This document shows positions 5,875-62,815 of a stretch of DNA of 64,000 bases, piece after piece. Source of the stretch: Methanococcus voltae (lineage in GTDB: Archaea > AGJL01 > Methanococci > Methanococcales > Methanococcaceae); assembly GCF_017875395.1 (NCBI RefSeq), contig NZ_JAGGMO010000001.1, positions 310,001 to 374,000 of the forward strand, given 5' to 3'. Within the stretch, counting starts at the first letter, position 1, and each line of letters opens with the position of its first letter. The notes under the pieces are model-generated. The model was not told the origin of the DNA. It saw only the letters and a list, made by a program, of their open reading frames with translations, and searched no databases. Both the position numbers and the translations under genes were made by a program.

Positions 5875-5951
5875 TGGTGGACCTAGCCGGATTCGAACCG
5901 GCGACCCTCGCCTTGTAAGGGCGATGTCATAGCCAACTAGACCATAGGTCC
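5875..5951 (-). tRNA. tRNA-Val (anticodon UAC), copy 1
   Basis: A complete cloverleaf on the minus strand: 7-bp acceptor GGACCTA/TAGGTCC, D arm, anticodon stem TCGCC/GGCGA with loop CTTACAA (anticodon TAC), and T arm with GGTTCGAATCC. The discriminator A is followed by an encoded CCA. It reads valine GUA codons. It is identical over 77 nt to the second copy 51 bp upstream. A TATA-like TTTATAAAT near 5992-6000 suggests it has its own promoter. Confidence 0.95.
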
Positions 5952-6002
5952 TCTTTTGCTTATTTATTATTTTGCAATCGTATGAATATTCTATTTATAA
6001 AA

Positions 6003-6079
6003 TGGTGGACCTAGCCGGATTCGAACCGGCGACCCTCGCCTTGTAAGGGCGATGTCATAGCCAACTAGACCATAGGTCC
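6003..6079 (-). tRNA. tRNA-Val (anticodon UAC), copy 2
   Basis: Identical in all 77 positions, including the encoded CCA, to the tRNA-Val at 5875-5951. It is the first of the tandem pair in the direction of transcription. A consensus methanococcal box TTTATATA (minus strand, 6126-6133) lies about 25 bp before a TTGCA likely start near 6101-6105. Tandem duplication with perfect identity implies a recent duplication or ongoing gene conversion. Confidence 0.95.
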
Positions 6080-7825: not shown

Positions 7826-8257
7826 ATGGTATTGTTACTTATAAGGGGAGACAGCTACGAAAAAATAAAAAACGCCTTAGCAGATGTACATAGGCACGCG
7901 AAACTAACGATTGTTGGAAAGCCAAGAATCATGGTACCAGAAGCTGCTGATGAAATTTTAGAATACATCGTTGGAAATATTAAAAAACCTTGTAAAAAAG
8001 CTTGTCTTGTGAAAATTGAAGAGAATGCCCCACGTTCAATCGATAGGATTAGGAAAATACACCCTCCTGCGCATATTGTAATACTTAGCGAAAGACACGA
8101 ACCTTATTCTTTCTTAATTGACGATTTTCCTAAGATGCCCATGTTAAAAGGATATTATAAAAGTAAAGCCATACTTGATAGCGAAGATGAAGAAAACAAT
8201 GAAAAATCTGAAAAAAATACAAAATCTAAACAAAAAAATAAAGGTAACAAAAAATAA
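7826..8257 (+). CDS. Conserved methanogen-type protein of unknown function
   Basis: 143 residues; I do not recognise a characterised function. It reads like one of the small proteins found across methanogens (methanogenesis-marker/DUF2113-type group), but I cannot assign the exact family with certainty. Visible are a globular N-terminal part with a conserved-looking pair Cys56 and Cys60 (KPCKKAC), a following ENAPRSIDRIRKIHPPAHIV block, and a highly charged Lys/Glu/Asn tail from about residue 118 that is probably disordered. The ATG at 7826 is chosen because GGTGA at 7816-7820 is its ribosome binding site; the upstream GTG at 7817 is part of that site. It precedes ileS by 155 bp on the same strand. 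Confidence 0.6.
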   Translation: MVLLLIRGDSYEKIKNALADVHRHAKLTIVGKPRIMVPEAADEILEYIVGNIKKPCKKACLVKIEENAPRSIDRIRKIHPPAHIVILSERHEPYSFLIDDFPKMPMLKGYYKSKAILDSEDEENNEKSEKNTKSKQKNKGNKK

Positions 8258-17122: not shown

Positions 17123-17525
17123 TTGACCACCTTACATATATGATTGCGTATTTTATTCGTCATTTCACGATAATTAGGTCTTGAAAGCCATAAATAAAGC
17201 TTATATACTAAGTAATACTATCTAAAAATACATATGTAATTCATGCTATATTATACCATATATCTATACGATAATTGATTATAACGTTAGAATTTTAAAT
17301 TGAAAATACAAAATGAAATTTTAATATGGAGTTTTGAATAACCAAAAATTTTAGCAAAGGATAAAGCTAAATAGTCCGCGAGGGCATAACAATATAATAA
17401 ATTATACAATAATACAATTGAATATTTAATTTAATATCGCATGAATAAATATCTCGACAATTATTATACGACCAACCAAATTAAAGTATTAGAATTAAAA
17501 ATATTAACCCAATATGGTGAGATTT
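17123..17525. other. Divergent region nnr/acd with a small GC-richer patch
   Basis: 403 bp upstream of both nnr and the acyl-CoA synthetase. Most is AT-rich. Around 17350-17392 there is a TTTAGC/GCTAAA 6-bp stem followed by a GC patch (CCGCGAGGG), on the acd side about 135 bp before its start. It could be a leader structure, but I recognise no riboswitch. Confidence 0.4.
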
Positions 17526-19637
17526 ATGAATAATGGACTTGAAGCAATTTTCAACCCAAAATCAGTTGCAGTAATAGGCGCTACTGAAATAGAAGGAAAA
17601 GTTGGACAATCTTTGATGAAAAACTTAAAAAGCTTTATGGAAAAAGGCGGTAATGTATACCCAATTAACAAAAAATATGAAGAAGTGTATGGTTTAAAAT
17701 GCTATGGTTCTGTTTTAGATGTTCCTGGTGACATCGACCTTGTTTTAGTTTCAATCCCTGCTAAATTCGTTCCTGAAACAATGGAAGAATGTGGAAAAAA
17801 GGGTGTTAAAGGCTCAATTATTATTACTGCGGGTTTTTCAGAAGTTGGTGACCACAGTCTCGAAGAAAAAACCATCGAAATTTTGAAAAAATACAATATT
17901 AGAACAATTGGCCCTAACTGTCTCGGTGTAATCAACATGCACGATGACTTAAACGCTTCATTTAGTAAAGATTTCGACCAAAAAGGTAATATCGCATTTA
18001 TCTCACAAAGTGGTGCTATTATGACCGCTTTAATGGATATTTCAATCCCATTAAACTTAGGTTACTCAAAAATCGTAAGTATGGGTAATAAAATAGATGT
18101 TCAGGAAGATGAAATTTTAGATTATCTCGCAGACGATGAAAATACAGATGTTGTTGTTTTATACGTAGAAGGACTTAAAAACGAGAAATTCATAGACTCT
18201 GCACGTGCTTTATCTCACAAAAAACCAGTTATTGTTTTAAAAAGTGGTAAATCGGATGCAGGAGCTAAAGCTGCATCGTCACACACAGGAAGTCTCGCAG
18301 GTAATGCACAAATGTACGAAGCTGCATTTAAAAAAGGAAGAGTATTCAATGTTGAAACTTTCGAGGAAATGGTTGACTTATTAAAAATATTCTCAACACA
18401 ACCTGTTATGAAAGGTAACAATGTAGGTATTATCACAAATGCAGGTGGATTTGGAGTTCTTGCTACCGATATGGTAAGTAAATACGGCTTAAATATGGCT
18501 GAATTCGAAGAAAAAACAATTACTGAACTTAAAAAATACTTGCCTGATACATCAGGTGTTTCAAACCCATTGGATTTAATCGGAGATGCCGATACAGAAA
18601 GATACAAACACGCATTTGAAGAATTAGCAAAAGATAGCAATGTAGACGGTATCGTTGTAATATTAACCCCTCAAGGAATGACTGATGACATTGGCGCTGC
18701 AAAAGAATTGGTTAAATTCCAAGATACACTTAGAGCAAAAGGAGAAACAATCCCAATTGTTGCTGCTTGGGTTGGTGGTAACTCAGTTTCAGAAAGTGCT
18801 GAGTACTTAAAAGAACACGAAATACCTACATTCATGTGCCCAGAACTTGCGGTTAAAGCGTTATCTGCAACATACCAACAGTACTTAAACCAAAATGTTG
18901 TTGATGATGGAGAATACCTTAAAAAAGTTCAAGAAGAAATATATGCAATCAAAGCAGAAAAAGGCGATGAATTAAGGGAATTACTTGCAAATCCAAATGA
19001 AAACAATGCAAAAGAATTCTTAAAAATTAACGGAGTTCCTACACCGGGTAGATACGTAGCTACAAGTGCAGAGGAAGCTGTAAAATACGCTTCAACAATG
19101 GATAAAGTTGTAATGAAAGTTGTTTCAGCTCAAATATTACACAAGTCAGATGCGGGTTGTGTTATCATTGCCCCATCAGACATTGAAGGTGCATACAATA
19201 CAATTATCGAAAACGGTACAAAATACCTTGCAAAAAAAGGCGAAACTGGCGTTATCGATGGAGTATTAATTGAAGAATTTGTAGAAGGTAAAGAAATTAT
19301 CATCGGCGGTAAAAGAGACGAAGTATTTGGCCCTGTTATCATGACTGGTCTTGGTGGTATCTTTGTAGAAGTTATGAAAGATGTTACCTTTGGAGTACAT
19401 CCAATAACCAAAAACTACGCTGAAGAGATGTTACAACAACTTAGAACATATAAAATCCTCGAAGGTGTAAGGGGAGAACCTAGAAGAGATATTGAATTTA
19501 TTAAGGAATTAATCGTAAGAGTAGGTGTAATTATGGAAGCTTACGATGAAATTCAGGAAATTGACATAAATCCTGTTTTCGTTAAAGAAGACGGTAAAAA
19601 AGGTGTGATAGGAGACGCTCTTATCATGACAAATTAA
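17526..19637 (+). CDS. acd: Acetate/acyl-CoA synthetase, ADP-forming (fused alpha-beta)
   Basis: Makes ATP and acid from acyl-CoA, ADP and phosphate, or the reverse, in the cytosol. The first ~460 residues are the alpha part: CoA-binding Rossmann domain and ligase domains, with the phosphohistidine at His253 in SHTGSLAG. Residues ~480-703 are the ATP-grasp beta part (VVMKVVSAQILHKSDAGCV; IGGKRDEVFGPVIMTGLGGI; EIDINPV). The 703-residue fused form occurs in methanococci, whereas Pyrococcus has separate subunits. The start at 17526 follows GGTGAG; the ATG at 17514 overlaps that site. Acetate versus another acyl substrate cannot be told from sequence. Confidence 0.9.
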   Translation: MNNGLEAIFNPKSVAVIGATEIEGKVGQSLMKNLKSFMEKGGNVYPINKKYEEVYGLKCYGSVLDVPGDIDLVLVSIPAKFVPETMEECGKKGVKGSIIITAGFSEVGDHSLEEKTIEILKKYNIRTIGPNCLGVINMHDDLNASFSKDFDQKGNIAFISQSGAIMTALMDISIPLNLGYSKIVSMGNKIDVQEDEILDYLADDENTDVVVLYVEGLKNEKFIDSARALSHKKPVIVLKSGKSDAGAKAASSHTGSLAGNAQMYEAAFKKGRVFNVETFEEMVDLLKIFSTQPVMKGNNVGIITNAGGFGVLATDMVSKYGLNMAEFEEKTITELKKYLPDTSGVSNPLDLIGDADTERYKHAFEELAKDSNVDGIVVILTPQGMTDDIGAAKELVKFQDTLRAKGETIPIVAAWVGGNSVSESAEYLKEHEIPTFMCPELAVKALSATYQQYLNQNVVDDGEYLKKVQEEIYAIKAEKGDELRELLANPNENNAKEFLKINGVPTPGRYVATSAEEAVKYASTMDKVVMKVVSAQILHKSDAGCVIIAPSDIEGAYNTIIENGTKYLAKKGETGVIDGVLIEEFVEGKEIIIGGKRDEVFGPVIMTGLGGIFVEVMKDVTFGVHPITKNYAEEMLQQLRTYKILEGVRGEPRRDIEFIKELIVRVGVIMEAYDEIQEIDINPVFVKEDGKKGVIGDALIMTN

Positions 19638-19851: not shown

Positions 19852-19884
19852 TAAGATTTAATCCATTTTGGTTCTTAAATCTTA
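19852..19884 (-). ncRNA. Archaeal SECIS element overlapping the hesB stop codon
   Basis: On the minus strand the RNA folds as follows. A 10-bp perfect lower stem (UAAGAUUUAA with UUAAAUCUUA) leads to an asymmetric internal loop with GAA on the 5' side and A on the 3' side. Above it are a 3-bp upper stem CCA/UGG and an AAA apical loop. This matches the known archaeal SECIS layout: 3'-UTR hairpin, GAA...A internal loop, short GC-containing upper stem. The first three bases of the stem are the UAA stop codon of the upstream selenoprotein reading frame. Confidence 0.9.
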
Positions 19885-20181
19885 ACAACATCCACCTGCT
19901 CCTTGTATGGCAAGATATTTTCCACTGAATACTGACTTTTTTAATACAATGTTTACACTTTCGAGCACTTGTTTTGCCATTTTGTCAATGTAAACCTTAA
20001 ACTCTGGTTCTTCGTGTATTAATTCATCTGTATCCATTATTTTATCCACTAAATCTACTGAAAATTTAGGCCCTCCTCAACCAAATCCTTCAAATACTAC
20101 AATGAAGTCCTTTGAAGTTGCTTGAGGTAGTTTTTCCATGATGAATTCTCTAGCATCATCTGATATGGTAACTGGTATCAT
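19882..20181 (-). CDS. HesB-like selenoprotein (in-frame UGA = selenocysteine)
   Basis: 99-residue HesB/IscA-fold protein read through a UGA at 20077-20079. Residue 35 is therefore selenocysteine in the motif GFG-U-GGP. The frame is otherwise open and continues to a UAA at 19882-19884, ending in GAGGCC with Cys98-Cys99. IscA/HesB proteins carry iron-sulfur or iron with three Cys; here Sec35 replaces the first and the C-terminal CC supplies the others. The HesB-like family is an established archaeal selenoprotein of Methanococcus/Methanocaldococcus. The exact role is unknown. A very strong AGGAGGTGT ribosome binding site (20186-20194) precedes the ATG. A SECIS hairpin follows directly. Standard gene finders would split or miss this gene. 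Confidence 0.93.
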
Positions 20182-20185
20182 CTTA

Positions 20186-20194
20186 ACACCTCCT
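20186..20194 (-). promoter_or_regulatory. Strong Shine-Dalgarno of the hesB selenoprotein
   Basis: AGGAGGTGT on the minus strand is nearly full complementarity to the archaeal 16S 3' end, four bases before the ATG at 20181. It fixes the start and implies high translation. Confidence 0.85.
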
Positions 20195-20461: not shown

Positions 20462-21610
20462 TTATTCTAAGTCTCCTCTATCGGTAACTTTTTCTAATTT
20501 ACAGTTGTTTTCTGGAATTTCTTCGAATCTTGATTCTAAAGCTTTTAAAACTTTAGGTACTGAGGTATATTCCATCATTGATTCTGGTAATCTGTGAGGT
20601 TGGAATGGACCCATGCTTCTCATCATGTCAGCCATTTCTAAAGCTTTATCTCTTGCTTTATCGAATGCTTTGTCTGCGAATAAGTCATTTGGACCAACTA
20701 ATCTTCCTTTTGATAATTGGAATCCTAAAGCCATAATTCTTGCAGGACCATCGAATCTTGAAGGCATAGCGTCTTCTTCTCCAACTGGCATCATTGGACC
20801 CCAGTGGCATCCTCTCATCCATCCTGATACTAAGTGTGGGTTAGCGAAAGCTTCTAAAAGTTCACCAACTGCAGGGAAACCGCTTTGAGCTCTTACGATA
20901 GCTACAGGGTCGTCTTTACCAACGTATTCTCCTGCCATCATGTTTAATTTTTCTGAACTTGCAACAGCTGCAATTTCGTTGTCGTATCCCCTGTAAACTC
21001 TCTTAATTGCGTATCTTTCTAAGTTTCCGATTAAAGCTAATAAGGAGTATGTTTCAGCAGGTGTGCTCATTAAAACTCTTTTGTGGTCGATAATGTCCAT
21101 AACTTCGTATTTGAAACCTTCTGTCATTGATGGGTCAAATACTAAACCTGGTGTGTTGAATGGACTGCTAAACATTTTGTAGAATGGCAAGTTAAATGCT
21201 GCAGGGTCTGTTTTATCACAGCAAAATACAACTAATGGTTCGCTTCTTCTTTCTACGAATTCCATTTCTGCACATCCTGGACCTAAACCTTTAACGTTTC
21301 CTGAAAATGAGTCTGATAATAAATCTTGACCTGCACCGTATAATTTTAACTCTTTTGCAACTTCTGTTGCATCGGTTAACGCATCCCAAGCTAATTTGTG
21401 TACTTCATCGTTGTCTGTACCTTTGTTGTGAGTCATAACGATATCGATGTCGTCACCACAGTTTGTAACGTAGTAATCGATTAATGTTTCATCAACCGCG
21501 TTTTCAACTACGTATTCAACAGCGTCTAATAATTCAATAGGAGCTAATGTGTGACCGCATAAACCGCCCACATCTGCTTTAATAACACTTACAGTTACTT
21601 TTTCTTCCAT
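20462..21610 (-). CDS. fbp: Fructose 1,6-bisphosphate aldolase/phosphatase (class V FBPase)
   Basis: Bifunctional gluconeogenic enzyme that condenses triose phosphates and then dephosphorylates fructose 1,6-bisphosphate. The 382-residue sequence has the Mg ligands of the family (Asp13 and His20 in ADVGGLCGH; Asp53-Asp54 in CGDD). The Schiff-base pair Tyr229/Lys232 is in EYVGKDDP and swaps roles between the two reactions. This is the standard archaeal FBPA/P. A GGTGT ribosome binding site precedes the ATG. It stands alone, downstream of shikimate kinase by 304 bp. GAPDH, another gluconeogenic enzyme, is 4 kb away on the same strand. Confidence 0.96.
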   Translation of the reverse strand: MEEKVTVSVIKADVGGLCGHTLAPIELLDAVEYVVENAVDETLIDYYVTNCGDDIDIVMTHNKGTDNDEVHKLAWDALTDATEVAKELKLYGAGQDLLSDSFSGNVKGLGPGCAEMEFVERRSEPLVVFCCDKTDPAAFNLPFYKMFSSPFNTPGLVFDPSMTEGFKYEVMDIIDHKRVLMSTPAETYSLLALIGNLERYAIKRVYRGYDNEIAAVASSEKLNMMAGEYVGKDDPVAIVRAQSGFPAVGELLEAFANPHLVSGWMRGCHWGPMMPVGEEDAMPSRFDGPARIMALGFQLSKGRLVGPNDLFADKAFDKARDKALEMADMMRSMGPFQPHRLPESMMEYTSVPKVLKALESRFEEIPENNCKLEKVTDRGDLE

Positions 21611-62713: not shown

Positions 62714-62759
62714 TTTTATCACTCACTGTAGTCAGTATTTTGTTTCCGGGTTCAGCATT

Positions 62760-62815
62760 CGCTACATTCCCTACGGGATTACTCCCGTTGATGTGAGAAC
62801 CTTTTCGGTTATCTT
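62760..62815 (-). promoter_or_regulatory. Structured leader of rpl15e mRNA
   Basis: On the minus strand the leader contains AACC-GAAAA-GGTT (62798-62810) and ACGGGA-GTAA-TCCCGT (62773-62788). GGTTC and GAACC segments can also pair around the second hairpin. Base composition is clearly more GC-rich than the flanking DNA. A TATA-like TTAATATAC (62835-62843) would start the transcript near 62815, including these hairpins. Possible autoregulatory leader; also possibly a small RNA. Confidence 0.5.

Follow-up and report, generated by a model that had tools for sequence, protein, structure and literature searches.

A HesB-like selenoprotein gene (hesB) lies on the minus strand of the 64,000-nucleotide stretch of Methanococcus voltae DNA analysed here (the window). 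It encodes an A-type, IscA-fold protein in which an in-frame UGA at codon 35 is very probably decoded as selenocysteine (Sec) via a SECIS element. We put the probability of this reading at about 95%; Sec insertion in this strain is the step that we infer. The sequence-only reading, which had proposed a HesB-like selenoprotein with a 3′ SECIS, is borne out by the protein's family, by homologues across the UGA, by a covarying SECIS and by a full set of Sec machinery. Its statement that HesB-like proteins are known selenoproteins of methanococci also agrees with the literature, which describes both the family and a Methanococcus member (PMC11097638, PMC2933860, PMC13188914). That member, from M. 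maripaludis, was found via mutagenesis and 75Se labelling (PMC11097638). With the family known for two decades and a member already known in the genus, the gene in the window is a sound but ordinary one.

A frame interrupted by a single UGA

The hesB frame opens with an ATG at 20181 and continues through 34 sense codons, the UGA, 64 further sense codons and a UAA (Table 1). The UGA sits in the context GFG-U-GGP and is the sole interruption, so that the earlier description of a 99-codon minus-strand frame broken by an in-frame UGA is exact to the base. Translation from 20181 gives MIPVTISDDAREFIMEKLPQATSKDFIVVFEGFG-U-GGPKFSVDLVDKIMDTDELIHEEPEFKVYIDKMAKQVLESVNIVLKKSVFSGKYLAIQGAGGCC. A strong Shine-Dalgarno site, AGGAGGTG, stands six bases upstream of the ATG.

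The gene had been expected to escape ordinary gene finding, and the standard-code ORF list (>=60 aa) indeed has no entry at the locus. Such a gap in standard gene calling would also be left by a pseudogene, in which the UGA is either a nonsense mutation or an error of sequencing and the product ends after 34 residues. A stop-free run of 64 codons has a chance of ∼0.002 at local composition. The frame is not a product of chance, because homologues run through the UGA in 33 genomes and the codons after it are strongly constrained.

Table 1. Features of the hesB locus and its neighbours in the window.
Feature	Position	Strand	Basis
HesB-like selenoprotein CDS	19885..20181	minus	99 residues, Sec at 35; stop UAA 19882-19884; Pfam, TIGR01911 and 33 homologues
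UGA decoded as Sec (residue 35)	20077..20079	minus	same codon in 33/33 homologues; purifying selection on both sides
SECIS element	19852..19884	minus	overlaps UAA stop; fold, covariation, sole such layout in window
Shine-Dalgarno site AGGAGGTG	20187..20194	minus	sequence
Candidate TATA box TATATATTTAA	20214..20224	minus	sequence alone
Fructose-1,6-bisphosphatase, upstream neighbour, outside the system	20462..21610	minus	Pfam FBPase_3, 586.8 bits
CoA-ligase/ATP-grasp protein (ADP-forming acyl-CoA synthetase type), convergent downstream neighbour, outside the system	17514..19637	plus	Pfam Succ_CoA_lig, ATP-grasp_5, CoA_binding_2

Homologues and selection across the UGA

The protein matches Pfam Fe-S_biosyn with 31.7 bits (cut-off 26.3). 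It also matches the NCBIfam family of HesB-like selenoproteins, TIGR01911 (PMC13188914 Table 1), over its whole length (E 1.2e-16, positions 1-91/92), with U-G-G-P at the position of the family's UxGP motif. The TIGR01911 score of 61.1 bits lies just below the curated cut-off of 66.35, as does that of a second genome of the genus, G003 (59.5 bits). Of 22 genomes from the window's taxonomic family, 19 have a TIGR01911 match, and a family profile matches 33 of 36 Methanococci genomes, the 33 spanning five genera; the three genomes that gave no match are drafts (completeness 99, 54 and 86%). A separate search for related loci returned none with the single protein and just two, both from Methanothermococcus, with the alignment.

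The alignment of the readthrough frame with HesB-like selenoproteins, proposed in the sequence-only reading as a check, extends through the UGA in all 33 homologues and all five genera. Each copy has one UGA, always at this codon, and none has a Cys codon in its place; no Cys-coded isoform was found in the 36 Methanococci genomes searched. Sec is residue 35 in every homologue read with a defined start (whole sequences read, n=33). The M. maripaludis protein (MMJJ_08070; PMC11097638) belongs to the same family as those of the seven Methanococcus genomes compared, in which hesB has UGA at codon 35, an IscA-like sequence, a C-terminal GGCC and a 3′ SECIS immediately at its stop codon; the strain used for the 75Se work lies outside the aligned set.

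The one part of the sequence-only reading that the analysis does not support concerned the metal or cluster site, for which it had joined Sec35 with Cys98-Cys99. Of the 33 homologues, 32 end in Cys, while Cys98 is confined to the genus Methanococcus (7/7 genomes there, 0 outside). As judged from the aligned sequences, the conserved pair is Sec35 and the last residue, rather than Cys98-Cys99. The one exception among the 33, which ends in Tyr (G031, locus L069), comes from a draft genome in which an error is possible.

Strong purifying selection acts on the codons both before and after the UGA. Identity between the window protein and the more distant members of its genus is 67-73%. After the UGA, comparison of the window with G006 gives 18.3 synonymous differences over 39 sites and 8.7 non-synonymous differences over 153 sites (dN/dS 0.08), and the pair G001/G003 gives a dN/dS of 0.04. 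Across six within-genus pairs the value ranges from 0.04 to 0.19, in SECIS-bearing and SECIS-less genomes alike. These values mean that the 3′ part of hesB is translated, and into a protein under constraint.

The SECIS element

The hairpin that had been noticed directly after the frame starts at the stop codon and has a canonical layout and a covarying stem. From the stop codon onward it reads UAAGAUUUAA-GAA-CCA-AAA-UGG-A-UUAAAUCUUA. A basal stem of 10 bp (19884-19875/19861-19852) leads to a kink-turn-like internal loop, in which GAA (19874-19872) stands opposite A 19862, and above this an apical stem CCA/UGG (3 bp) carries the loop AAA (3 nt). The two stems, the asymmetric GAA/A loop, the C-G apical clamp and the location in the 3′ untranslated region are those of methanogen (euryarchaeal) SECIS elements, for which layout and mutational data are available (PMC11881835, PMC13188914).

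Several results set this element apart from background. The folding z of the hairpin is -2.9, with an equally good fold in 2 of 200 shuffles. When both strands of the 64 kb were scanned for a generic methanogen SECIS layout, it was the sole element found (mean 0.2 elements in 20 first-order Markov simulations). In an alignment of the SECIS of 25 hesB genes, standard pairs fill 94.9% of pair cells, and both sides have changed in 70 cells, vs 21 in shuffles. The covariation score is 0.672 vs 0.232 in shuffles, of which 0/500 reach it, and slid versions score at most 0.308. The SECIS model R1 gives the window element 34.5 bits, a score that is partly by construction because the window row is included in the model. 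On whole genomes R1 is specific to the elements of hesB and close ones of vhu. It did not pick up the SECIS of other selenoproteins in the window's own genome and was therefore not used for counting selenoproteins. An Rfam scan of the window gave no SECIS family match. A bacterial-type SECIS within the coding region was considered and rejected, as the 71-nt stretch by the UGA folds like its shuffles (z 0.31).

A hairpin that mimics a SECIS by chance is ruled out by conservation, selection and covariation. The same three lines dispose of the pseudogene, whose probability we regard as negligible: the identical UGA recurs in 33 genomes of five genera, selection continues downstream of it, and the SECIS covaries. 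Reporter assays in M. maripaludis showed that the GAA/A motif, with two invariant adenines, is essential and that the clamp pairs and the loop tune efficiency (PMC11881835). The window SECIS differs from that of the M. maripaludis HesB-like selenoprotein in its 3-nt loop and in having A-U as the third apical pair. Because that pair and the short loop are among the features that tune efficiency (PMC11881835), our analysis suggests a working element of moderate strength.

Selenocysteine machinery

The sequence-only reading had named selB, selD, pscS and tRNA-Sec as genes to look for. In the host genome (1.90 Mb, 97% complete) we found tRNA-Sec (anticodon UCA, 59.3 bits), SepSecS (524 bits), SelB (best PDB match 4ac9, annotated SelB, 3e-210) and SelD, and PSTK (306 bits) besides; together these are the components expected of an organism that makes selenoproteins. 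SelD is of the selenoprotein type, with its own in-frame UGA, and the SelD of M. maripaludis is itself a selenoprotein (PMC11097638). Of the observations that had been named as counting against a selenoprotein, neither a lack of homologues through the UGA nor a lack of tRNA-Sec or SelB was found.

Alternatively, near-cognate suppression might place Trp, Cys or some other standard amino acid at the UGA instead of Sec. A dedicated SECIS and a complete Sec pathway in the genome argue against this, as does the labelling of the M. maripaludis homologue with 75Se (PMC11097638), and we consider it very improbable. For Sec insertion, the PSTK/SepSecS route would make Sec-tRNA(Sec), SelB would carry it to UGA 35, and the SECIS beginning at the stop codon would direct the decoding.

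Fold and candidate role

An AlphaFold model (three sequences) has a mean pLDDT of 84.7 and a pTM of 0.75, with pLDDT <50 in the tail that bears Cys98-Cys99. The solved folds closest to the model are IscA, SufA, HI1723 and AQ_1857 (TM 0.62-0.70; PDB 1x0g, 2d2a and 1r94 for IscA/SufA), and in a profile alignment to HI1723 Sec35 falls where the A-type signature has its first Cys. The IscA fold and the Fe-S_biosyn domain are thus both evident, and hesB is the one Fe-S_biosyn match in the host genome. Identity to IscA/SufA is ∼15-20%, however, and the window protein lacks the C-terminal Cys-Gly-Cys. IscA/SufA have three conserved Cys, the last two in Cys-Gly-Cys; here Sec35 and one C-terminal Cys are conserved. 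The protein is therefore not filed as IscA/SufA and is A-type-like at most, and its site differs from that of IscA because the conserved positions are two, not three.

Sec35 occupies the place of the first cluster-ligand Cys in A-type proteins, and the C-terminal Cys99 is the sole other conserved chalcogen residue. We give roughly even odds to a carrier role in which the two bind an iron-sulphur cluster or a metal ion; such binding would probably be across a dimer. HesB-like selenoproteins have been listed under ‘iron/sulfur cluster assembly?’ (PMC2933860), and the function has been called ‘not clear’ (PMC11097638). A disruption mutant of the M. maripaludis gene still fixes nitrogen (PMC11097638), and the protein therefore has no essential cluster role there.

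Instead of a carrier, the protein may be a redox enzyme that forms a selenenyl-sulphide between Sec35 and Cys99. The fold and the position of Sec35 match A-type cluster proteins, and UxxC and CxxU motifs are absent, both of which speak against such an enzyme. It is favoured by the number of conserved Sec/Cys positions, which is exactly two, with the second closing the protein in 32/33 homologues, and by the view that uncharacterised selenoproteins are mostly redox proteins (PMC13188914). We regard it as a serious contender, at somewhat less than an even chance.

Genomic neighbourhood

In most genomes compared, hesB is a solitary gene, flanked on one side by a divergent proteasome-alpha/SBDS/L37ae cluster and on the other by a convergent gene of the CoA-ligase family. 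In the window's lineage, a rearrangement placed fructose-1,6-bisphosphatase upstream of hesB. As a clue to hesB function, the neighbourhoods of the genomes compared offer no prominent partner gene.

Four Methanocaldococcus loci (L092, L093, L094 and L077) have an inverted repeat, GGTTGTG-N11-CATAACC, upstream of hesB and just before a TATA-like stretch. Kept between species, it is a possible regulator site. Elsewhere in the window are two tandem tRNA-Val (UAC) genes with equal scores (5875-6079, minus strand) and an Rfam eL15-Euryarchaeota ribosomal leader (62744-62787, minus strand; 34.6 bits, cut-off 33.7).

Relatives without a recognisable nearby SECIS

A SECIS is present at the hesB stop codon in 30 of 33 homologues. 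In G004 (L021/L084), AAA/A replaces GAA/A; this variant is natural in fwuB and functional at a reduced level (PMC11881835). The remaining three, all from Methanocaldococcus (G028, G029 and G035), keep the UGA and a constrained frame without a recognisable nearby SECIS. In G028 (L077) the element is reduced to a plain hairpin just after the stop codon (GCTAACT-GGAA-AGTTAGC), and the apical stem is lost. The UGAs of G035 (L076) and G029 (L081) are at oriented positions 8103 and 6103, and the two genes differ after the UGA by 7 synonymous and 0 non-synonymous changes. Apart from a single weak TAA/A candidate in G035, located at +601, no SECIS layout was found in either between 700 upstream of the UGA and 900 downstream of the stop codon, and the covariance model gave nothing >14 bits in the hesB region. 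Their 3′ neighbour of hesB is unlike that of other genomes. In both genomes a SECIS-like element persists next to the vhu hydrogenase genes; in G029 it follows a two-UGA frame.

Because the 3′ SECIS is lost while the UGA and constrained codons are kept, Sec insertion in G028, G029 and G035 may use a remote signal or one of an undescribed kind, which we consider unlikely.

Outlook

The window gene makes small additions to a known family: Sec35 and the final Cys as its conserved residues, the lack of a Cys isoform in 36 Methanococci genomes, and its standing as the sole Fe-S_biosyn match in its genome. It is also a clean case of a gene concealed by standard annotation, in which the recoding is shown to be under selection. 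The relatives without a SECIS would offer a natural experiment on what the element is required for.
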